Assembly: GCA_002393865.1 (NCBI GenBank)
Contig: DGUD01000214.1
Location: 1-20,426, forward strand
Direction: 5' to 3'
Origin: Treponema sp. UBA4319
Lineage (GTDB): Bacteria; Spirochaetota; Spirochaetia; Treponematales; Treponemataceae
Length of the DNA: 20,426 nucleotides
Shown: positions 7,597 through 17,251 of the stretch, piece by piece
How the letters are laid out: the number at the start of each line of letters is the position of its first letter
Position numbering within the stretch: the stretch's first letter is position 1
Translations under genes and position numbers: made by a program
The notes under the pieces: model-generated
The model's database searches: none
Seen by the model: the letters and a program-made list of their open reading frames with translations, nothing else
What the model was told of the DNA's origin: nothing

Positions 7597-9261
7597 TCAG
7601 TCGTCCACCGAAAGCTGCCCGGCAATGGCAAAGCAGCGGTCGCCCACTTTCTCTATCTGCTTGACCAGATCCATGTACAGAAGCTCAGCCTTGACGTTGG
7701 CGCCGCCTTCAAGACGGTCGCGGGCAATCTTCTTCAGCGCCTTCTTCTCTCCGTCAATCTGATCCTCCAGCTCCTTTGCAAATTCCAGCTGTTTTTCAGA
7801 AAGCCGCTTGTCTATGTTCTTGTACACAAACTGGAGCAGCTGCCGCGCAAGCTCCAGATAGGGCAAAAGGCGCTCAAAGTCCTCCTGCGGGTAAAAATAC
7901 TGTTTTTCCGTCATGCGCTTTATGTACACGCCGATGCTCAGGCAGTCATCGGAAAGGCTTTCCAGCTCGCTCACAATCTGCACCAGCGAATTGATAAGAT
8001 CGTTCTGGTGCGCATCCACGTTCAGCTGCTCGCAGCGGATAAGATAGTTTATCAGCTGCTCGTGCATCTGGTCCAGGTAGGCCTCGTCCTTGACGAGATT
8101 GTCGTAGTGGTCAATCACAAAGCGCCCCGAACGGTCGGTAAAGCCGTACTGCAGGCTGTCGAACATCTGCACCGCCTTGTCCGCCATGTGCGATACCTCC
8201 CGCTGCGCGGTGATGATGTAGGTCATCGGCGAATTGCGCACGGCGGTCTCCGGGAAGTCCAGACGGTAGCTCTGCTCAGCCTCGGCAGGGTCGTCAGGCA
8301 CAAGGCGCTCCGTCAGCCGCGCAATCTGCGGCACCCACGGCAGGAAGAGCACGTTGCCTCCCACCTTGAACAGCGTGTGGAGCATGGCGATGTGGAAGAC
8401 GATGTTGTCCTCAACATTGCCGGGAACGATAAAATCGACGAAACTGGTAAAGGGCTTCAGCAGGACAAGGGCAATGAGCGCCGTCGTCACATTGAAGAGC
8501 ACGTGGGAAAGCGCCGCCCGCTTTGCGTTGGGGTTCGCCCCGAAGGAAGCCATGATGGAGTCGATGGTGGAGCCGATTTCGCTTCCGATGACGATGACCG
8601 CGGAAAACTCCCAGGTGATGAGCCGGTTGAATGCCAGCGTGATGACGATTGCCGTCATTGCGGAGGAAGAATGCATGAGCGCCGTCAGCATGATGCCTAT
8701 CAGCAGCCCGACGGGGATGCTGAACGCGCCGAGATTCTGCAGGGCAGGAAGGAAGGTCATGGAGCCGCTGTGCGCGGATATGGTGGACGAGAGCCAGCCG
8801 AGCGCGATGAACAGCAGGCCGAAGCCCATCACCGCCTGACCGGGTCCCTGCTTGTTCCAGCGGCGCATGGAGGTCAGCACATAGCCGATTCCGAAAATCG
8901 GCACCGCAAAGGTCTCAATCTTAAAGTTAAAGCCAAAAAGCGCCACAATCCACGCGGTTATGGTAGTGCCGATGTTCGCCCCAAAGATAACGGGGATGGA
9001 CTGCACCAGCGTGAGCAGCCCCGCGTTCACAAAGGTGATGACCATGACGGTGGTCGCCCCGGAGGACTGGATTATCATGGTCAGGAGGCAGCCGGTAAGG
9101 GCGGCGGCAAAGCGGTTCCCCGTCATAAAGTGGAGCGCCGCCTTGAGCTTTTCGCCCGTAGACGCCTGGATGCCGTCGCTCATCAGCTTCATGCCGTACA
9201 GCAGGAAGCAGAGGCTGCCCGCCAGCTGAAGCACAGTGGAAATTAGCGTTGAGATGCTCAT
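7597..9261 (-). CDS. Na+/phosphate cotransporter with PhoU-like C-terminal domain
   Basis: A 554-residue membrane protein of the Na/Pi-cotransporter (NptA/YjbB-like) family, expected to move phosphate with sodium across the inner membrane. The membrane half contains the family's inverted-repeat signature twice: Q65-S-S-G-A-T-T71 and H197-S-S-S-A-M-T203, each followed by a long hydrophobic helix. From about residue 345 to the end is a soluble, charged, all-helical region of the PhoU type. ATG 9261 is preferred; a GTG at 9270 in frame is possible. No Shine-Dalgarno is visible. The ATG overlaps the stop of an upstream parA remnant as ATGA, and a -10-like TATACT lies nine bases upstream, so translation is either coupled or near-leaderless. 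Confidence 0.92.
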   Translation of the reverse strand: MSISTLISTVLQLAGSLCFLLYGMKLMSDGIQASTGEKLKAALHFMTGNRFAAALTGCLLTMIIQSSGATTVMVITFVNAGLLTLVQSIPVIFGANIGTTITAWIVALFGFNFKIETFAVPIFGIGYVLTSMRRWNKQGPGQAVMGFGLLFIALGWLSSTISAHSGSMTFLPALQNLGAFSIPVGLLIGIMLTALMHSSSAMTAIVITLAFNRLITWEFSAVIVIGSEIGSTIDSIMASFGANPNAKRAALSHVLFNVTTALIALVLLKPFTSFVDFIVPGNVEDNIVFHIAMLHTLFKVGGNVLFLPWVPQIARLTERLVPDDPAEAEQSYRLDFPETAVRNSPMTYIITAQREVSHMADKAVQMFDSLQYGFTDRSGRFVIDHYDNLVKDEAYLDQMHEQLINYLIRCEQLNVDAHQNDLINSLVQIVSELESLSDDCLSIGVYIKRMTEKQYFYPQEDFERLLPYLELARQLLQFVYKNIDKRLSEKQLEFAKELEDQIDGEKKALKKIARDRLEGGANVKAELLYMDLVKQIEKVGDRCFAIAGQLSVDD

Positions 9262-9512
9262 GATAGGCACAGTATAGAGGAAAAGGCAACAAAATGGAAG
9301 TAGGCGGCCAGGGCTGCCGCGATATTCTTGTTGCCGATGGGCTCCAGCTCCCGGTGCTTGTCGGGGAGCAGCGCTAGGGATGCCGAATCGCTGGCGTCCA
9401 GATCAACCAGAAGTGTCCTATACCCTGCTGCCGCAAGAATGCGTGCAAGCAGCACTGACATCGTCGATTTTTCTGTTCCGCCCTTGATAGCAGCGAGGGA
9501 AATGATTTTCAT
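9258..9512 (-). pseudogene. Truncated ParA/Soj-type ATPase remnant
   Basis: This 84-codon frame begins exactly like a ParA ATPase (MKIISLAAIKGG). The deviant Walker A is altered: KGGTEKST (residues 10-17) has Glu14 where the invariant glycine belongs. The following helix and strand (LLVDLDASDSASLALLP) match the family, but recognisable ParA sequence stops near residue 69. Full proteins are about 250 residues, so roughly three quarters are missing. It keeps a good GGAGG ribosome site before ATG 9512. Its TGA overlaps the Na/Pi transporter ATG, so it may survive only as a translated leader. No parB-like gene is nearby. GC content matches the native flank, not the AT-rich cassette to its right. 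Confidence 0.75.
9262..9299 (-). promoter_or_regulatory. Weak candidate promoter of the Na/Pi transporter gene
   Basis: On the minus strand TATACT (9276-9271) is a good -10, with a weak -35 (TTCCAT, 9299-9294) 17 bases upstream. The -10 lies inside the parA remnant and would start RNA at or within a few bases of the ATG. Confidence 0.3.
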
Positions 9513-9685
9513 GGCGTTCCTCCATGGATAGTGATAAAATTGCAGGCTTCCGTTCCGGATCACGGAGGAAACCTGCGGGAAAATACTGCCGGGGAACGAC
9601 CGTGCAGCCTTTCCCCTTCCCGTCGCGAAATCGATTCGTTCGGGATAGGAAATACCACAAGCTAGTGACACTTTAAGTAAAAGTA

Positions 9686-9714
9686 TTGACATTTAAGTTA
9701 GTATGTACTAATAT
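9686..9714 (+). promoter_or_regulatory. Strong sigma-70-type promoter of the tetR-ECF cassette
   Basis: TTGACA (9686-9691) is a perfect -35, followed by a 17-base spacer and TAATAT (9709-9714). RNA would start near 9721. Its near-consensus form fits a promoter that is normally held down by a repressor. Confidence 0.8.
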
Positions 9715-9739
9715 AACCGAGTTACGTAACCGAGTTATG
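9698..9739. promoter_or_regulatory. Putative TetR-family operator cluster
   Basis: The dyad TTAGTA-TG-TACTAA (9698-9711) sits in the spacer and on the -10 box. Just downstream lies a tandem 13-base direct repeat, TAACCGAGTTACG (9714-9726) and TAACCGAGTTATG (9727-9739), one mismatch apart. A perfect 10-base palindrome GTTACGTAAC (9721-9730) crosses the repeat boundary at the expected start point. Bound repressor at either site would block polymerase. The repressor gene is the first gene transcribed, so autoregulation is likely. Confidence 0.55.
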
Positions 9740-9788: not shown

Positions 9789-9830
9789 ATGATGCCTAAA
9801 CAGAAAACGCAAGGAGTGATGGCGAGGTGA
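9789..9830 (+). CDS. Possible 13-residue leader peptide overlapping tetR
   Basis: ATG 9789 opens a frame reading MMPKQKTQGVMAR and stopping at TGA 9828-9830, which overlaps the tetR GTG (GTGA). The AGGAG at 9812-9816 lies inside it. It could be a coupling leader, or the remains of an N-terminal extension of TetR put out of frame. Its own start has no clear ribosome site, so expression is uncertain. Confidence 0.25.
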   Translation: MMPKQKTQGVMAR

Positions 9831-10453
9831 AAGACAGGAATGCTGTAAGAGAGCATTTATTGGCGGAAGGGAAGAAAGCATTCATGGAAAAAGGATATGG
9901 TGGTGCCTACCTTCGCGATATTGCCAGTGATGCCGGTGTTACTACCGGGGCAATCTATGCACATTATAAGGATAAGGATGCGTTATTTGTGGATTTGGTA
10001 AGTCCGGTGCTTGAAGGATTTAAAGCAGAACTTCGCAGGTGGCAGGATGTTTATCACGATATTGATAATACGAAGCTTCATGATAATCCGATGATGCTTC
10101 ATTCACATGACGGAGCAATCGATTATATTTATGACCATCTGGATGAATTTATGCTCCTTATTCATTCAGCACATGAAACATCCATGAAGGATTGGTTCAA
10201 GGATTTCATTGCTGAGGAAACAACGGCTGCTCAGTCCTTGCAGAGTAAATGGGAGGATGCGGGAATCCTTCGTTCAAACATAGATGAAAAATTCATATCG
10301 ATCATAAGTGCCTCGTATTTTCGCAACATCTTCGATGCGGTAGAGAGGGGCATGAGCAGAGAAGATGCCAAGGATTTTGTCAGGACTCTGTCTGTTTACT
10401 ATACAGGTGGATGGAAAGCTCTGGCAGATCAGCAACAAAAAAATAATGATTAA
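9827..10453 (+). CDS. TetR/AcrR-family transcriptional repressor
   Basis: A 208-residue regulator. The N-terminal DNA-binding domain (about 5-55) has a textbook TetR helix-turn-helix at residues 28-47, ending GAIYAHYKDKDALF. The rest is an all-helical ligand-binding and dimerisation domain without a recognisable ligand signature. The start is GTG 9827 with AGGAG ten bases upstream (9812-9816); an out-of-frame ATG at 9819 reads only three codons. It is the first gene of the AT-rich cassette and lies on the same strand as the transporter genes. It probably represses them and itself through the operator cluster at 9698-9739 and is released by the transported compound or a signal of its scarcity, which is inference from arrangement. 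Confidence 0.92.
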   Translation: MKDRNAVREHLLAEGKKAFMEKGYGGAYLRDIASDAGVTTGAIYAHYKDKDALFVDLVSPVLEGFKAELRRWQDVYHDIDNTKLHDNPMMLHSHDGAIDYIYDHLDEFMLLIHSAHETSMKDWFKDFIAEETTAAQSLQSKWEDAGILRSNIDEKFISIISASYFRNIFDAVERGMSREDAKDFVRTLSVYYTGGWKALADQQQKNND

Positions 10454-10518: not shown

Positions 10519-11100
10519 ATGGATAACAAGTTAAAGGGCAAGGATTTGATTAACATCGGTATCTTTGCGGCAATTTACTTTGTTATAAACATGGTATTGT
10601 CGTTTATGGGCTTTGTGCCTATACTGCTGCTTCTTATGGTGGTTATTACACCAATCGTCGGAGGAACGCCTTTTATGCTTTTTCTGACCAAGGTCAAAAA
10701 ATTCGGGATGATCACCATCTTTGCGACTATCATAGGTTTACTTATGATGCTGGGAGGAATGGGATTTTATGCCATATTCACAAGCCTTATCTTTGGGCTT
10801 GCGGCAGATTTTATTGCTAAGAGCGGCAACTACGGCAGTAAATCAAAAACCTTTATTGCTACTGCGGTATATTCATGCTGGGTTTGGGGCAATTATCTTC
10901 CTATCTTCATCGGGAGAGAGGCTTATGTGGCGCAGTATGCCGAAAAAGGAATGGAAGAATACGCCAATACGATGATGTCCATTACTCCGATGTGGCTTTG
11001 TCCGCTCATGCTCGTGGCGGCTTTTGTGGCAGGGCTGATTGGAGCATTTATAGGCAAGGCGTTACTTAAGAAACATTTTGAGAGGGCCGGTATTGCGTGA
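10519..11100 (+). CDS. ECF transporter S component, Trep_Strep-type membrane protein
   Basis: A 193-residue integral membrane protein with about six membrane spans and short loops, the size and shape of substrate-binding S components of energy-coupling-factor importers. From memory, the N-terminus (KGKDLINIGIFAAIYFVINM) and overall length resemble the Treponema/Streptococcus 'Trep_Strep' family (TIGR02185). The substrate of that family is not firmly known. AGGAGG lies seven bases before ATG 10519. The EcfT gene starts in the TGATG overlap at its stop, and the ATPase domains follow, so this is a dedicated (group I-like) ECF set rather than an S component sharing a distant ATPase. Vitamins, metals or metal chelates are all possible substrates. 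Confidence 0.8.
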   Translation: MDNKLKGKDLINIGIFAAIYFVINMVLSFMGFVPILLLLMVVITPIVGGTPFMLFLTKVKKFGMITIFATIIGLLMMLGGMGFYAIFTSLIFGLAADFIAKSGNYGSKSKTFIATAVYSCWVWGNYLPIFIGREAYVAQYAEKGMEEYANTMMSITPMWLCPLMLVAAFVAGLIGAFIGKALLKKHFERAGIA

Positions 11101-11840
11101 TGCAAAATGGATTTATGAGGGCAACAAAGGGGAACCGCTCCGTTCTGGCGCTGGATCCCCGGACGAAATTATTCTTGCTGATTTTGCTTTGCATATTTTC
11201 TTTAGGTGGAGCAGGGGGTGCGGCGGCAACGCAACTCACCCCTGTTTTAACATTGGCACCATTCCTTTTTTTGCTTGCATCAGCTAAGTGGGGAGGGGCT
11301 TTTTTGTATGCGACTCTGTATATTATAAGTCATTTGCTGGAAATAGAGGTTTTACCTGTTATTTCGGGTGTGCCATATATCAGTATCCTGTTGTTCTGTG
11401 GGGCGGTTTCTCATTTTATGCCATGCATCATGATGGGATATTTTGTCATAAGCACGATTACGGTAAGTGAATTTGTGGCAGCATTGGAGAGGTCTCATAT
11501 TCCGCAGACCATCACCATACCGCTTTCTGTGATGTTCCGTTTCTTTCCGACGGTAATGGAGGAATTTAATGCAATAAATGATGCCATGCGGATGAGAGGG
11601 ATACGCTTTGGAGGCGGACATGTCGGCAGAATAGTGGAATACAGGCTTATTCCTTTACTTATATGTTCTGTGAAGATTGGTGAAGAATTATCTGCCGCAT
11701 CCCTTACCAGAGGACTTGGCACGCCCGTAAAGCGCACGAATATTTGTGAGATAGGATTTGGATTTTGGGACTATCTGTTTTTCATTCTGTCCTTTATCTT
11801 TATCTGCTGCGTGATATGGCTGGATGTGATTGGAGGTTAG
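11100..11840 (+). CDS. ECF transporter transmembrane coupling protein EcfT
   Basis: A 246-residue CbiQ/EcfT-family protein that links the S component to the ATPases. It has hydrophobic spans near residues 23-75, 85-125 and 220-243. Between them are the two cytoplasmic coupling motifs diagnostic of the family: A162-M-R-M-R166-G and A200-S-L-T-R204-G, which insert into grooves on the two ATPase domains. ATG 11100 overlaps the S-component stop (TGATG). GTG at 11097 and ATG 11115 are less likely starts. Five bases separate its stop from the ATPase fusion gene. Both coupling motifs look intact, so the ECF module should be functional. Confidence 0.88.
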   Translation: MQNGFMRATKGNRSVLALDPRTKLFLLILLCIFSLGGAGGAAATQLTPVLTLAPFLFLLASAKWGGAFLYATLYIISHLLEIEVLPVISGVPYISILLFCGAVSHFMPCIMMGYFVISTITVSEFVAALERSHIPQTITIPLSVMFRFFPTVMEEFNAINDAMRMRGIRFGGGHVGRIVEYRLIPLLICSVKIGEELSAASLTRGLGTPVKRTNICEIGFGFWDYLFFILSFIFICCVIWLDVIGG

Positions 11841-11845
11841 GACAG

Positions 11846-14800
11846 ATGATAGAGCTAAAGAATATTAATTTTAAGTATTCTGGCAGCAAAGATGCAGGTG
11901 GTCTTAAGAATATAAATCTTACTATACAGACAGGCGAAATGATTGTCCTGGCAGGAGAGTCAGGATGCGGAAAGACAACGATTACAAGGCTCCTGAATGG
12001 TCTGATTCCTCATTATTATGAGGGGGAGCTTAGCGGTGCCATCCTGATAGACGGGAAGAATATCAAGGATATGGAGCTTCATGAGGCTACACGTTTTTCC
12101 GGTTCTGTGTTTCAGAATCCGCGCGCACAGTTCTTTGCGGTGGATACAGATTCGGAGATGAGCTTCGAATGCGAAAATTATGGCATGCCTGAGGAAGAAA
12201 TAAAGACGAAAGTGGAGGAGACCACACAGGAGTTTAACATCGGCACGCTAAGGCATCGCGATATCTTCCTTCTTTCGGGTGGTGAAAAGCAGAAGCTTGC
12301 CTGCGCCAGCGTGTCTGTTGACAGTCCTGAGATTATGATTTTGGATGAGCCTTCATCAAATCTTGATATGACTGCCATCAGAGATTTGCAGAAAAGTATA
12401 GGATTATGGAAAAGTAAGGGCAAAACGATTATAGTTGCGGATCACAGGCTTGCATACCTTATGGACTATGCAGACCGCATTGTTTATATAAAAGATGGTG
12501 TAATAGCAAATGAGTTTACACCTGAAGAGCTTCGGAGTAAAACCGCAGGAGAAATGAAAGAGCTGGGGCTGCGTCCCGTGACCGCAGATCAGTTCGTGAC
12601 ATCAGTAAGATGGAATGACGATAGGACAAGCCTTGATGAGAATGCAATCAAACTGAGCGAGTTTTATTTCTCATACGATGGTGTACATAAGATTCTTGAC
12701 ATAGATGAGGCAGAAGTGCCATCAGGAGAAGTGGTGGCTGTTGTCGGATTTAATGGAACAGGGAAATCTACTTTTGCCAGGTGCCTTATAGGCTTACAGA
12801 AGCATTTTCGGGGAAAAGCCGTAATAGATGGGAAAAGTGAGAAAAGAAGCAAGCGTCTGAAGAGATGCTTTATGGTGATGCAGGATGCGGGGCATCAGCT
12901 TTTTACGGAATCAGTGCTTGAGGAAGTGCTGATAAGCATGAAAGTGGCAGATGAAAAAAAGGCGGAGGAAATCTTAAAGTCACTGGATTTGCTTGCATTC
13001 AAGGACAGGCATCCCATGTCGCTCTCCGGCGGGCAGAAACAACGTGTGGCAATCGCATGTGCCATCGCATCCGGATGCTCTACACTGGTATTTGACGAAC
13101 CGACAAGCGGACTGGATCTTAAGCATATGCTTGAGGTGGCAGAGAATATAGATATGCTCCGTAAACAGGGAAAGAACATCTTTGTGATATCCCACGATAT
13201 GGAATTCTTGTTAAGAAGCTGCACGTATGTGCTCCGGCTTGAGGGAGGCACTATCCGAGAGCAGTATCCGCTTGACGAGAGAGGGTTGGAAAGACTTAAA
13301 AACTGGTTTGAAGTCCGATCAAGAGGGAGGGTGAAAGCTGAAATGCCAAAGAAAGAAACGGAAGGAGTGCTTGGAAAAATATTCGAGTATGCTGCAGAAA
13401 ACAAAAAGTTCATATATCTTTCGGTACTTTCGCTTGCGGCGGCGGTACTTTGCTCCGTAGTGCCGTACTTTGTTTTATATCATAAATTCTTGAATCCGAT
13501 TATAGGAGGGAGAATGCCCGGAGCCTCAGATGCATTTTGGGGAATCCTTATGATATTGCTGGCGTTCATTTTAAATACGCTTCTGTATAATATCGGTCTT
13601 TCACTTTCGCACAGAAGTGCCTACAGGACGCTTGAGAATATACGAAATTTTGCAAAGGACAAGCTGATATCCATGCCGATGGGGGATATAGAAGATCTTG
13701 GCACAGGTGCTCTCAGAAAGCTTTTTACAGATGATATAGAGAATATGGAGATACCTTTGGCACATGCGATTCCCGAAGGTATCGCTAACATTCTTGTGCC
13801 TGTTTTTATTTATATTGCAATGTTTATCATTGATGCAAAGCTCGGATTTCTATCACTCGTATCACTGCCGGTAGGAGCCATTTTCATGTTTATCATGTAT
13901 AAAATGGGGCTTTCCAGAATGGATGCGTTTTATAAAGCTGCAAAGCAAATGAACAACACCATTATGGAATATGTGAATGGCATGGAGGTTATTAAGGTTT
14001 TCAATAAAGACAGTGAAAGCTTTGGTAATTTCTCAAAAGATGTTGATACTTACAAAGAGTATACTCTCAGATGGTATAAGGACACCTGGCCTTGGATGGC
14101 GGCCTATGGCGCGGTTTTACCATGTGTCGCTATGGTCACGCTTCCTGTTGGTGCATACATGGTTTACAAGGGGTATTCCACGCTTGAGGACTTTGTATTC
14201 GTACTTTGCCTGTCTGTCAGTGTAGGTGCACCGATTATGAAATCCATGGGATTTTTCAGCCTTTTTCCTCAGATAAACTATAAGATTGAGCAGCTTGAAA
14301 AGCTCCTTACGTTTGAACCGTTAAAATGCGGAGATGAGAAGGAAACTGATAATTTCAACATAAACTTTGATCATATATGTTTCTCTTATGATGACAGCGA
14401 GGTGCTTCACGATGTAAGCTTTACGATACCGGAAGGCTGTCAGGTGGCATTTGTCGGAGAGAGCGGAAGCGGCAAATCAACTCTTGCAAAGCTTCTGGTT
14501 CATTTTTATGACACAGATGAAGGGAAAATCACAATAGGAGGAAAGTCGGTCACGGCTCTCTCCCTTGAATCCCTGAACAGTATGATTTCTTTCGTGTCGC
14601 AGGAACAGTTTCTGTTTAACGTCAGTATATATGAGAATATAAGGATTGGGAGACCTGAGGCAAGCCGCGATGAAATAATGAGGGCGGCTGAAAGAGCCGG
14701 ATGTATGGAATTTATAGAACGTCTTCCGGAAGGAATTGAGACTAACGCCGGAGAATCCGGGAAGATGCTGTCAGGTGGTGAAAGACAGCGCGTCAGCCTT

Positions 14801-15124
14801 GCGAGAGCCATACTTAAGAATGCGCCTATTGTGGTGCTTGATGAGGCAACCGCCTATGTCGATCCAGAGAATGCGGGGAAGATTGACAGGGCAATGAAGG
14901 AAGTTACGAAGAATAAGACCGTGGTAATCATAGGGCATAAGCTGAAAAATCTTACCGGATCAGATAGTATTGTGGTGCTTAATAAAGGTAAAGTGGAAGG
15001 CATCGGCTCTCATGATGAGCTTTTGACAAAGTGTGATTGTTATCGCAGACTTTGGGATGCAGGTCTATCATCTGATGAATGGATGATAAATGAGAAGAAA
15101 ACGGGAGGCGCGGCAAATGTTTAA
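11846..15124 (+). CDS. Fusion of duplicated EcfA ATPases with an ABC-exporter half (three ATPase domains)
   Basis: A 1092-residue chain. Domain 1 (about 1-250) is an EcfA ATPase: Walker A G37-T45, Q90, signature LSGGE 143-147, Walker B ending D167-E168, switch H200. Domain 2 (about 270-490) is the second: Walker A G301-S308, LSGGQ 393-397, D417-E418, H450. After a basic linker (about 485-510) comes a six-span exporter membrane domain (about 520-800), then a third ATPase: Walker A G871-T879, LSGGE 975-979, D999-E1000, H1031. All three look catalytically complete. The start is ATG 11846, five bases after ecfT. EcfA pairs are often fused and exporter halves are normally separate; joining them is the oddity. 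An internal GGGAGG before GTG 13331 and ATG 13343 could also give a separate exporter half. Confidence 0.88.
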   Translation: MIELKNINFKYSGSKDAGGLKNINLTIQTGEMIVLAGESGCGKTTITRLLNGLIPHYYEGELSGAILIDGKNIKDMELHEATRFSGSVFQNPRAQFFAVDTDSEMSFECENYGMPEEEIKTKVEETTQEFNIGTLRHRDIFLLSGGEKQKLACASVSVDSPEIMILDEPSSNLDMTAIRDLQKSIGLWKSKGKTIIVADHRLAYLMDYADRIVYIKDGVIANEFTPEELRSKTAGEMKELGLRPVTADQFVTSVRWNDDRTSLDENAIKLSEFYFSYDGVHKILDIDEAEVPSGEVVAVVGFNGTGKSTFARCLIGLQKHFRGKAVIDGKSEKRSKRLKRCFMVMQDAGHQLFTESVLEEVLISMKVADEKKAEEILKSLDLLAFKDRHPMSLSGGQKQRVAIACAIASGCSTLVFDEPTSGLDLKHMLEVAENIDMLRKQGKNIFVISHDMEFLLRSCTYVLRLEGGTIREQYPLDERGLERLKNWFEVRSRGRVKAEMPKKETEGVLGKIFEYAAENKKFIYLSVLSLAAAVLCSVVPYFVLYHKFLNPIIGGRMPGASDAFWGILMILLAFILNTLLYNIGLSLSHRSAYRTLENIRNFAKDKLISMPMGDIEDLGTGALRKLFTDDIENMEIPLAHAIPEGIANILVPVFIYIAMFIIDAKLGFLSLVSLPVGAIFMFIMYKMGLSRMDAFYKAAKQMNNTIMEYVNGMEVIKVFNKDSESFGNFSKDVDTYKEYTLRWYKDTWPWMAAYGAVLPCVAMVTLPVGAYMVYKGYSTLEDFVFVLCLSVSVGAPIMKSMGFFSLFPQINYKIEQLEKLLTFEPLKCGDEKETDNFNINFDHICFSYDDSEVLHDVSFTIPEGCQVAFVGESGSGKSTLAKLLVHFYDTDEGKITIGGKSVTALSLESLNSMISFVSQEQFLFNVSIYENIRIGRPEASRDEIMRAAERAGCMEFIERLPEGIETNAGESGKMLSGGERQRVSLARAILKNAPIVVLDEATAYVDPENAGKIDRAMKEVTKNKTVVIIGHKLKNLTGSDSIVVLNKGKVEGIGSHDELLTKCDCYRRLWDAGLSSDEWMINEKKTGGAANV

Positions 15125-16826
15125 ATATATAAAACACATCCTTGATTTTTCTGGTAAATATAAAGTCCGAATCAGTCTGGCGGCTGTTCCGCTCTTCCTA
15201 AAGACGATGTTGTCGCAGATGATGATTTTTTATTCTTATCTGATGATTTTAAGGTTACTTGAAAAAAAATATCTTCCTAAGGATTCGCTTGTATTTGCGG
15301 GTATGATTGTTCTGACATTATTTTTGGAGGCGTTATTTCAAAATATATCTGACAGACTTCAGAGTTCTGCGGGATTCATTGTCATGGCGGAAAAAAGGAA
15401 AGCCCTCGGAGAGCATTTAAGACGCATGCCGATGGGATATTTTTCCGAAGGAAATGTCGGAAACATAAGTACGGTGCTTGCCACAGATATGACATATCTT
15501 GAAGAGCATGGTGTTGCCATCGTGGCGACGATTATAAGTGATATCTCCAATATAATCGTTACAGCGATTTTTTTGTCAGTCATTGATTATAGGATTGGGA
15601 TTGTCTATATAAGTTTTGTTGTCCTGATACTTTTCCTGTCAAAGGGCATGATGAAAACAAGCCTTAAAGAGGCAAGTGTCAGACAGGAGCAGAATGGAAG
15701 GCTCGCAGAGTCCGTAATTGAATTTGTCTCAGGAATAGGCGTAATAAAGTCATTTCCGGCAGCCCATTTTGCTGTAGAAAGGACTGAGGGAGCCTTTCGT
15801 GAGTCTGCAGAGGACAACATTCATTTTGAAAAGAAATATTCTCCCTGGACATTCCTGATGGGGATTGTTTGTGGCTTAGGCATCACGCTTATCTTTGGAC
15901 TTGGATTTTACTTGTATCACACGGGAGAATTAGACAAAAGCTTTTTCCTGGGGCTTGGGCTGTTTGGTATGCAGATTTTCGGCAGCGTAAAATCGTTTTA
16001 TTCTCAGAGTGCAAATGTTTCTCTTGCGGAAAGCTCACTGTCAAGAGTGGATGCATTGCTTTCAGAGCCTGAACTTGCGGATACCGGACGAGAACATTTT
16101 TCGCCTTCGGGAGAGCCTGAAATCGAATTCAGGGATGTGTCCTTTGGATATGGGAAGGAAGATGTTCTTAAAAACGTGTCATTTACCGTGGACAAAGGAC
16201 AGATGCTCGCGTTTGTAGGCCCTTCCGGCGGAGGCAAATCTACTGCCGTGAATCTCATTGCAAGACTATGGGATGTGAGAGAAGGGGCTGTCCTCTTACG
16301 GGGCAGAGACATCCGCGAAGTGCCTCTTGGTGAGCTTATGAATGAAATCAGTATGGTTTTTCAGAGAGTATATTTGTTTAAGGATACGATTTACAACAAT
16401 ATTTCCATGGGCAGACCCGATGCAAGCCGCGAAGAAGTGATAGAAGCATGCAAGAAAGCAAGATGCCATGAGTTCATTATGTCGCTCCCGGATGGATATG
16501 AGACCGTCCTCGGAGAGGGCGGAGCGAGCCTGTCAGGAGGGGAACGACAAAGAATATCCATCGCCAGGTGTATTTTGAAAGATTCACCGATTATTCTTCT
16601 TGACGAAGCAACAGCAAGCGTGGATGTCGATAATGAAAGATATATAGAAGAGGCCATCAGTGAGCTTTGCCGTGATAAAACCGTTATTGTCATCGCTCAC
16701 AGATTGTACACGATACGCGATGCTGACAAGATTCTTCTCATAAAAGACGGAACAATTTGCGAGCAGGGTACATATGATGAACTTGTAAGTCAGGAAGGAA
16801 TATTCGCGGCAATGGCTGCTGTTTAA
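15117..16826 (+). CDS. ABC transporter half, exporter fold (membrane domain plus ATPase)
   Basis: A 569-residue half-transporter: six membrane spans (about 15-300), then an ATPase with Walker A G368-P-S-G-G-G-K-S375, signature LSGGE 472-476, Walker B D496-E497 and switch H528. It should pair with the exporter half at the end of the preceding fusion protein; both partners keep their catalytic glutamates, so both ATP sites could work. GGGAGG at 15103-15108, eight bases before ATG 15117, decides the start over an upstream in-frame ATG at 15090. It overlaps the fusion gene by eight bases. Exporter-fold pairs next to uptake genes can be metallophore importers (YbtPQ, IrtAB), an attractive but unproven reading; toxin or peptide export is the alternative. 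Confidence 0.9.
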   Translation: MFKYIKHILDFSGKYKVRISLAAVPLFLKTMLSQMMIFYSYLMILRLLEKKYLPKDSLVFAGMIVLTLFLEALFQNISDRLQSSAGFIVMAEKRKALGEHLRRMPMGYFSEGNVGNISTVLATDMTYLEEHGVAIVATIISDISNIIVTAIFLSVIDYRIGIVYISFVVLILFLSKGMMKTSLKEASVRQEQNGRLAESVIEFVSGIGVIKSFPAAHFAVERTEGAFRESAEDNIHFEKKYSPWTFLMGIVCGLGITLIFGLGFYLYHTGELDKSFFLGLGLFGMQIFGSVKSFYSQSANVSLAESSLSRVDALLSEPELADTGREHFSPSGEPEIEFRDVSFGYGKEDVLKNVSFTVDKGQMLAFVGPSGGGKSTAVNLIARLWDVREGAVLLRGRDIREVPLGELMNEISMVFQRVYLFKDTIYNNISMGRPDASREEVIEACKKARCHEFIMSLPDGYETVLGEGGASLSGGERQRISIARCILKDSPIILLDEATASVDVDNERYIEEAISELCRDKTVIVIAHRLYTIRDADKILLIKDGTICEQGTYDELVSQEGIFAAMAAV

Positions 16827-16842: not shown

Positions 16843-16880
16843 TAGACATGTTCGGAAACCTCAGTTTCCGAACATGTCTA
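16843..16880. terminator. Perfect 17-bp-stem palindrome closing the cassette
   Basis: TAGACATGTTCGGAAAC (16843-16859) pairs base for base with 16864-16880 around the loop CTCA. It starts 16 bases after the last cassette gene, where a terminator is expected, but only a weak AT-rich tail follows rather than a T-run. A mobile-element end or recombination site is the other possibility. Confidence 0.55.
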
Positions 16881-16945: not shown

Positions 16946-17179
16946 ATGAACGGTGCCTCCACGAACGTGCGGGGGAATGCCTCGGTGGGCGGCGGCATAT
17001 TCCTTGTGCCCGCTGCGGAGGACGGCGCGCCGGACATGGACACGGGCGGGAGGAAACTGGTAATACGTGGAACATGGGTATACAGGAAAAATGTTGAAAG
17101 GAGCTTGCAAAGTCTTGCACCCGCTGCACATGCCAAGATGTGGGCGGGTATAGGTATGGAAATCAATTTCGTGTTCTGA
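16946..17179 (+). pseudogene. C-terminal fragment of an outer-membrane beta-barrel protein
   Basis: The open frame ends KMWAGIGMEINFVF then TGA. Alternating hydrophobic residues with a terminal phenylalanine are the mark of the last strand of an outer-membrane beta-barrel. A preceding strand pair (GGGIFLVPA and RKLVIRGTWVYR) fits the same picture. Sequence is GC-rich like the native chromosome, while the bases just upstream are AT-rich cassette sequence. No ribosome site or signal peptide precedes it. The simplest reading is the 3' end of a gene whose front was lost when the cassette came in. I cannot name the parent family. Confidence 0.45.
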
Positions 17180-17251
17180 TTCCGGCGGGAGTGGTATCTG
17201 ATTCCGGCGGGAGTGGTATCTGATTCCGGCGGGAGTGGTATCTGATTCCGG
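17176..17251. repeat. 22-bp tandem repeat, about 3.5 copies
   Basis: Three identical 22-base units (17176-17197, 17198-17219, 17220-17241), each beginning CTGATTCCGG and ending GGAGTGGTAT, are followed by the first ten bases of a fourth (17242-17251). The array begins on the stop codon of the outer-membrane remnant. The repeats abut with no spacers. Tandem repeats near insertion-sequence ends (IS21 family) are one possible origin; no transposase is present. Confidence 0.9.

Follow-up and report, generated by a model that had tools for sequence, protein, structure and literature searches.

The stretch of DNA examined here, called the window, is 20,426 nucleotides from Treponema sp. UBA4319 (contig DGUD01000214.1). 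It holds an operon, read on the plus strand, whose order is a TetR-family regulator, an S component of the Trep_Strep family, an EcfT-type membrane protein, a long fused chain, and a second half-transporter that is called here E2. The fused chain, encoded at 11846-15124, is the subject of this analysis. It joins two ATPase domains of the EcfA type, known from energy-coupling factor (ECF) importers, to one half of an ATP-binding cassette (ABC) transporter, called here E1. The fused protein is taken to be real because the same fusion occurs in many other bacteria.

The gene is a single frame, free of stops, that encodes 1092 amino acids. A TTG at 11765 is a possible earlier start; the ATG at 11846 is preferred because GGAGG precedes it at 11832-11836 and because residues M1-I2 are nearly invariant among relatives. 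Domain models, motifs and the predicted structure place a first EcfA-like ATPase domain at 11846..12640 (about residues 1-265) and a second at 12641..13315 (about residues 266-490). A short linker follows (13316..13366, residues 491-507, about 17 residues), delimited by the predicted local distance difference test (pLDDT), the junction alignment and the stop-free DNA; the pLDDT of residues 491-505 is below 50 in the predicted structure of the chain. Then come a type IV (exporter-fold) membrane domain, that of E1 (13367..14350, about residues 508-835; PF00664, 67 bits), and the ATPase domain of E1 (14351..15121, about residues 836-1092; Pfam, motifs and predicted structure). All of these lie on the plus strand. 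Pfam finds ABC_tran in three stretches of the chain and ABC_membrane in one, and patterns that we take to mark Walker A, the signature, Walker B with its glutamate, and the H-loop match three times in the fused chain and once in E2. The original prediction, made from the letters of the DNA, had described an unbroken frame with two EcfA-type domains, a membrane domain and a third ATPase, every Walker A, Walker B and signature motif intact, and the half-transporter partnered by the product of the next gene. The open frame, Pfam and the pattern matches confirm this description, with E2 as the partner.

The ECF identity of the first two domains is indicated by the models TIGR04520 (411 bits, cut-off 315, best stretch residues 2-252) and TIGR04521 (388 bits, cut-off 330, best stretch residues 2-272), where each score is a sum over the three ATPase domains of the chain. 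ECF transporters having two EcfA domains in one chain do, of course, exist. These, including the unfused proteins called here AA', resemble the window in their EcfA pair and in having EcfT and S genes in the operon; they differ in that the window chain continues into a half-transporter. Thus, where the ATPases of an ECF system are separate soluble subunits, here they share a chain with a membrane protein. The protein P0312 (718 aa) carries a further fusion in the same AA' family, EcfT being joined at the N-terminus to two EcfA domains, with no half-transporter; P0324 (722 aa) has the same precomputed domains.

The S component (10519..11100, plus strand) scores 213 bits with PF09605 and 151 bits with TIGR02185 (cut-off 76), and carries the name "MptD family putative ECF transporter S component"; the transport role of the Trep_Strep family is a prediction. 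The EcfT-type protein (11097..11840, plus strand) gives 58.8 bits with PF02361, CbiQ (cut-off 25), and has two Arg-Gly motifs, presumably a mark of EcfT. Solved EcfT chains match it weakly (E 3.6e-7), and the equivalog model for cobalt CbiQ, TIGR02454, falls under its cut-off. E2 (15117..16826, plus strand, 569 aa; PF00664 60.8 bits, ABC_tran 104 bits) begins within the fused gene, its start overlapping the stop of that gene by 8 bases.

How common is this architecture? A protein search found 3518 proteins at E <= 1e-50 to the fused chain; it admitted lengths of 0.55-1.75 times the query, a range that makes the count no measure of fused against unfused proteins. The original prediction had proposed such a search, together with the neighbours of the matches. 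The same parts stand in the same order in all 120 of the matches listed, with 98-100% query coverage and 42-100% identity (42-46% for most); the first of the 120 is the window's own protein, and the structure alignment used 52 of them. Names among the matches listed include Lachnospiraceae, Butyrivibrio and Treponema sp. OMZ 805. At L026, a locus in a Ruminococcus metagenome-assembled genome (MAG), the protein is fused and 72% identical. Genome searches, scoring the top two or three candidates in each genome, found the fusion in four of 295 other genomes sampled from the phylum (G328, G282, G331 and G226), two of which are assemblies of two contigs each. It was found in three of 199 other genomes of the genus, all three among the same four, and in one of 398 genomes from the phylum of the Ruminococcus MAG, namely the MAG itself. 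The fusion is widespread but patchy.

The original prediction knew of no described system of this form. That part stands for the portions of the literature that were searched, where no description of an EcfA-EcfA-half-transporter fusion was found; the suggestion of a one-off does not. Among plasmid records, three match about half of the chain and none covers 80% of it. In the junction alignment, the fused protein of G226, a genome of the same family as the window's, is almost the same as the one from Treponema sp. OMZ 805. Two loci, L058 and L059 (in G282 and G331), hold the fused set, an unfused ECF and exporter-fold set, and an extra exporter-fold pair within 20 kb. Candidates for longer fusions in G340 and G657 (open-frame lengths 1374-1436) were rejected, as the open-frame listing gives separate genes.

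An assembly error or a frameshift might make one gene out of two. This is ruled out near 13330 by the 120 matches listed, by the other genomes (two of them with two contigs each), and by an alignment of the junction in 16 fused sequences, the window's included, all 16 of which read through without the stop or frameshift that the original prediction had asked about. Alternatively, internal initiation might deliver wholly or partly two proteins. Here, an in-frame ATG lies at the junction (13343-13345), with GGGAGG 12 nt upstream (13325-13330), and in seven of the 16 aligned fused proteins, L026 included, a methionine stands approximately at the start position of unfused E1. The window's own junction methionine is, however, not present in P0002, P0003 or L026. 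The junction ATG of L026, viewed by eye, directly abuts a purine-rich stretch and so lacks the usual spacing, and the junction stretch examined in L060, the fused locus of G226, has no ATG or GTG, with TTG confined to the last part of domain 2. Further, internal initiation would supply free E1 yet leave the fused chain in place. Artefact and internal initiation together are very improbable. The product to be expected is the fused chain, beside which, judging from the junction sequence, a certain amount of free E1 could be made.

The next question is what kind of transporter E1 and E2 form. The original prediction called the membrane portion an exporter, a label that the membrane domains make doubtful, since their best matches are siderophore importers. 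Searched alone against solved chains, the membrane domain of E1 matches YbtP at 75 bits (E 6.8e-20), then IrtA at 51 and ComA at 31; that of E2 matches YbtQ at 42.6 bits (E 4.8e-10), followed by a bacteriocin transporter at 37. YbtPQ and IrtAB are thus the nearest sequences to both membrane domains and share the type IV fold, the kinship consisting of similarity scores among solved chains. We know of no ECF partner for YbtPQ or IrtAB. With whole chains, the half-transporters nearest to E1 are YbtP (290 bits), YbtQ (268), IrtA (244) and Sav1866 (225), whereas the best half-transporter chain for E2 is Sav1866, at 274 bits against 259 for YbtQ. A fold search confirms the type IV fold. Two-domain ABCB exporters rank first among the best 50 Foldseek rows, where YbtP (8vsi_A) is the sole half-transporter chain (TM 0.84 by its own length). 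Among NCBIfam models for exporters, CydD and CydC alone exceed their cut-offs, on the fused chain (best 25 of 208 rows for that chain, best 25 of 188 for E2), with scores that sum its three ATPase domains.

IrtA has an N-terminal siderophore-interaction domain, and the title of 6tej says "devoid SID". In the fused chain, the two EcfA domains occupy the position of that domain; the N-terminal half matches models of ABC ATPases and no siderophore-interaction domain, among the best 25 of 37 families. Measured against solved chains, E1 and E2 resemble a pair of the YbtP/YbtQ type by sequence, and this points to siderophore import as the likelier direction.

The same parts are also found as separate genes. 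Contig C3 of the window's genome carries another set, this one unfused, in the order E1, E2, S, S, T, AA', where T is EcfT. In neighbourhoods fetched around 31 unfused AA' genes, 21 have at least two same-strand exporter-fold genes no more than 7 kb away, or 19 of 29 after two rows without S or T nearby are removed. These loci were fetched by match to the query and some come from very similar genomes (G282, G331), so the sample is biased. Other arrangements are seen as well. At L066 a gene for an EamA-family transporter (11301-12434) lies between EcfT and AA', and at L072 a further transporter gene (8188-9246), judged by an N-terminus like that of L066, lies in the same place.

Trees were made for AA' (95 of 275 rows) and for E1 (60 of 204 rows), the rows being clustered at 72% identity and the subgroups named after the tree was seen. 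On the AA' tree, 24 fused representatives fall into three groups; three changes are needed, and the starred branches force three. The window group adjoins unfused proteins, among which P0249 (Ruminococcus flavefaciens by name) has the shortest path to it. A single clade of all fused rows is rejected by the approximately unbiased (AU) test (p 0.0013), as is a clade joining the window group to the group of P0009 and P0038 (p 0.0029); a clade joining the window group to the large group is not rejected (p 0.215). On the E1 tree, a single set of 29 rows, with good support, takes in every fused E1 along with five unfused ones, and a single origin is not rejected (p 0.125). Because one AA' clade is rejected, it would seem that the joint arose, or swapped its ECF part, more than once, always with the parts in the same order. 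These trees are compatible with repeated fusion and equally with a single fusion whose ECF part was later exchanged. The S and T proteins of the window are 48-50% and 56% identical to those of the unfused C3 set, against 35-36% and 30-31% for the fused loci L057-L059, and this greater nearness to C3 is in line with the AA' tree.

These data bear on another view of the fusion, that it merely equalises the amounts of two neighbouring products while the transporters act separately, the tether contributing nothing to the mechanism. Sets without the fusion are common, one of them being in the same genome, and the low confidence of the linker prediction is as expected for a flexible stretch. It is harder to see, under this view, why the fused order should stand on separate AA' branches and be kept at 42-46% identity to most of the matches listed. 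We regard it as rather unlikely.

A link to siderophores comes from the neighbours of unfused sets and from published clusters. At L108, an unfused set in the order S-T-AA'-AraC-E1-E2 lies beside genes for an AMP-ligase, a phosphopantetheinyl transferase and a thioesterase, and a long frame in the stretch holds a condensation domain. The eqb (equibactin) cluster of Streptococcus equi, on ICESe2, is described as having genes for a thioesterase, a phosphopantetheinyl transferase, a salicylate-AMP ligase, a nonribosomal peptide synthetase (NRPS), a permease, an ATPase and ABC transporters (PMC3672683). These are the same kinds of gene as at L108, compared by list and not by order. In C. difficile, the gene list of 023_CTn1 runs from two ABC proteins through AraC, an ABC ATPase and an "Ecf" cobalt-type protein to a membrane protein, and then on to genes for a thiazolinyl imide reductase and an NRPS (PMC6814731). 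Thus, L108 and 023_CTn1, the latter by its gene list, have the set of S, T, AA', E1 and E2 inside such clusters. A similar NRPS in S. lugdunensis has an ECF system dedicated to it.

The equibactin cluster likewise combines a three-gene importer with two exporter-fold ABC genes. Import of the product requires eqbHIJ, which by analogy would be the ECF set, and EqbK and EqbL are 28-30% identical to YbtP and YbtQ (PMC3672683). A set of S, T and AA' with a pair of type IV halves is present in both the window and L108, and is likened to eqbH-L by description rather than by Eqb sequences. The differences are that the equibactin system has separate genes, a DtxR-like regulator and an NRPS, whereas the window has a fused gene beside TetR in a genome without a condensation domain.

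The original prediction had suggested uptake of a chelate with release of its carrier. This fits the published equibactin data, for a set that appears to be unfused; the exporter that it presupposes is the part in doubt. In its full form, the ECF machine would take in the metal-loaded carrier, E1 and E2 would expel the emptied carrier or a harmful by-product, and the tether would couple this recycling. The iron-overload phenotype of S. equi persists after deletion of eqbKL, and medium from the eqbKL mutant showed a twofold drop in cross-feeding activity, taken by the authors as possible efflux of the product (PMC3672683). The higher whole-chain score of E2 with Sav1866 than with YbtQ speaks the same way. 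Yet for the membrane domains on their own the best matches are YbtP/IrtA and YbtQ, and the window's genome (G000) lacks a condensation domain. An importer tied to a true exporter is, on balance, unlikely.

We therefore tentatively propose, at a little short of an even chance, that the operon encodes a tethered ECF and YbtPQ-like uptake system, two ABC machines on one chain, for a metallophore-type chelate. The S component would bind the substrate, and EcfT would couple it to the two fused EcfA-type domains. Further along the same chain, E1 would pair with E2 as a type IV heterodimer, a relative of YbtPQ and IrtAB. Tethering would set a 1:1 ratio and keep the ECF motor beside the second transporter, so that both could act on one substrate. 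This would most likely be a metal-chelate (metallophore-like) molecule; one machine would import the chelate, while the other would import or recycle either that compound or its carrier once stripped. The operon would be repressed by TetR at a palindromic operator until ligand is present. We infer, in this, the single physical complex, the substrate class, the direction of E1 and E2, and the role of TetR and its site. A bolder version is doubtful, but deserves notice: a hybrid ABC supercomplex with four ATPase domains, in which an EcfT/S importer and a YbtPQ-like heterodimer would pass chelate or carrier between translocators, built by fusion, perhaps repeatedly.

Several observations weigh against the proposed tethered uptake system. 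In whole-chain searches, two-domain ABCB exporters come out on top by summed stretches, and the fold search gives similar Z scores to many type IV transporters without separating importers from exporters. A fixed arrangement of the domains is without support in the predicted structure, where the predicted template modelling score (pTM) is 0.49 and confidence in the linker is low. Among solved chains nothing matches the S family, and Trep_Strep receives one passing mention in the portions of the literature searched. Ten of the 31 unfused AA' genes have no exporter-fold pair of the kind counted above, one being at a contig end and one having a pair on the opposite strand. At L060 the fused chain and E2 stand without adjoining S and EcfT genes; the G226 genome has seven Trep_Strep matches, none of them at L060. 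In S. equi, eqbKL was dispensable for import and looked rather like efflux (PMC3672683), and the equation of eqbHIJ with an ECF set is itself our inference. Finally, condensation domains were sought in the genomes. None was found in G000 (84% complete), G328 or G226, while G282 has 10, G331 four and G338, the Ruminococcus MAG, four; in G282 and G331 none lies nearer than about 80 kb to the fused gene, which in G338 occupies a short contig of its own. Because such domains are absent from the genome or from the vicinity of the fused gene, the fused systems would have to scavenge a foreign chelate.

If the parts do form one assembly, it would be, judging from the literature searched, the first known example of an ECF importer joined to a type IV transporter. 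This would bear on why exporter-fold pairs accompany ECF genes in siderophore clusters, a matter that the equibactin work left open. The natural fusion also offers a single bait for biochemistry and structure, where the unfused counterpart may hold together too loosely for purification.

The regulatory features of the operon are as follows. The TetR-family regulator (9827..10453, plus strand, 208 aa) scores 45.3 bits with Pfam TetR_N (cut-off 24). Upstream of it, a pattern search gives a putative TetR operator at 9713..9738 (plus strand), of the form ATAAC-N3-GTTAC-GTAAC-N3-GTTAT; the site reads ATAACCGAGTTACGTAACCGAGTTAT, and by eye a promoter-like TTGACA (9686-9691) lies ahead of it. The pattern was built from the sites of the window and of L026. 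It matches once in the window and not at all in 100 shuffles, and occurs at one place in the genome of the window and at a single place in the Ruminococcus MAG, with none for a reversed control; four other fused genomes that were searched have no match. The sites at L026 (187-212) and L100 (793-818) each lie directly 5' of a TetR-like gene, which at L100 is found with E1 and E2. The 9713-9738 site is, from these matches, likely the TetR operator of the window's subgroup.

A TetR regulator with a conserved site suits yet another explanation, in which the type IV halves serve ordinary efflux, as in detoxification, or another substrate (heme, an antibiotic, a lipid), and the ECF part takes up an unrelated nutrient. 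Heme-specific ECF systems are reported in the literature, and "exporter" models score well across the fused chain. Against this stand the NRPS-linked relatives of the whole set and the sequence kinship of the membrane domains to YbtP/IrtA and YbtQ, and we hold the explanation to be improbable.

The chelate-uptake operon proposed above also appears to be an arrival. It coincides with an island of about 8 kb whose GC content is about 0.41-0.45 across the operon, against about 0.6 outside, with third-position values of 0.40-0.50 against 0.79-0.83. The flanking genes, which we take to be a Na/Pi-type transporter and TrkH, are 8183 bases apart in the window, whereas 69 bases separate their matches in G012, a related genome. 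There the order is kept, a LysA-like gene lying on one side and, on the other, a partial TrkA where the contig ends. Ruminococcus records are the closest relatives that carry a name, which suggests that the operon was acquired from the Ruminococcus side.

At the left edge of the island, on the minus strand, a ParA/MinD-like frame (9261-9578, 106 aa, matching the first part of the AAA_31 model only) is possibly a relic of a mobile element. No known RNA element in the window scores above its gathering threshold, and a defence-system reading, raised by PADLOC matches to mad3 and mad8, was set aside, as these look like generic matches to ABC ATPases. A perfect 17-nt inverted repeat (16843..16880, no strand assigned), like a terminator, lies 3' of the operon. 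At the right edge of the island is a perfect tandem repeat of 22 nt in 3.5 copies (17175-17251).

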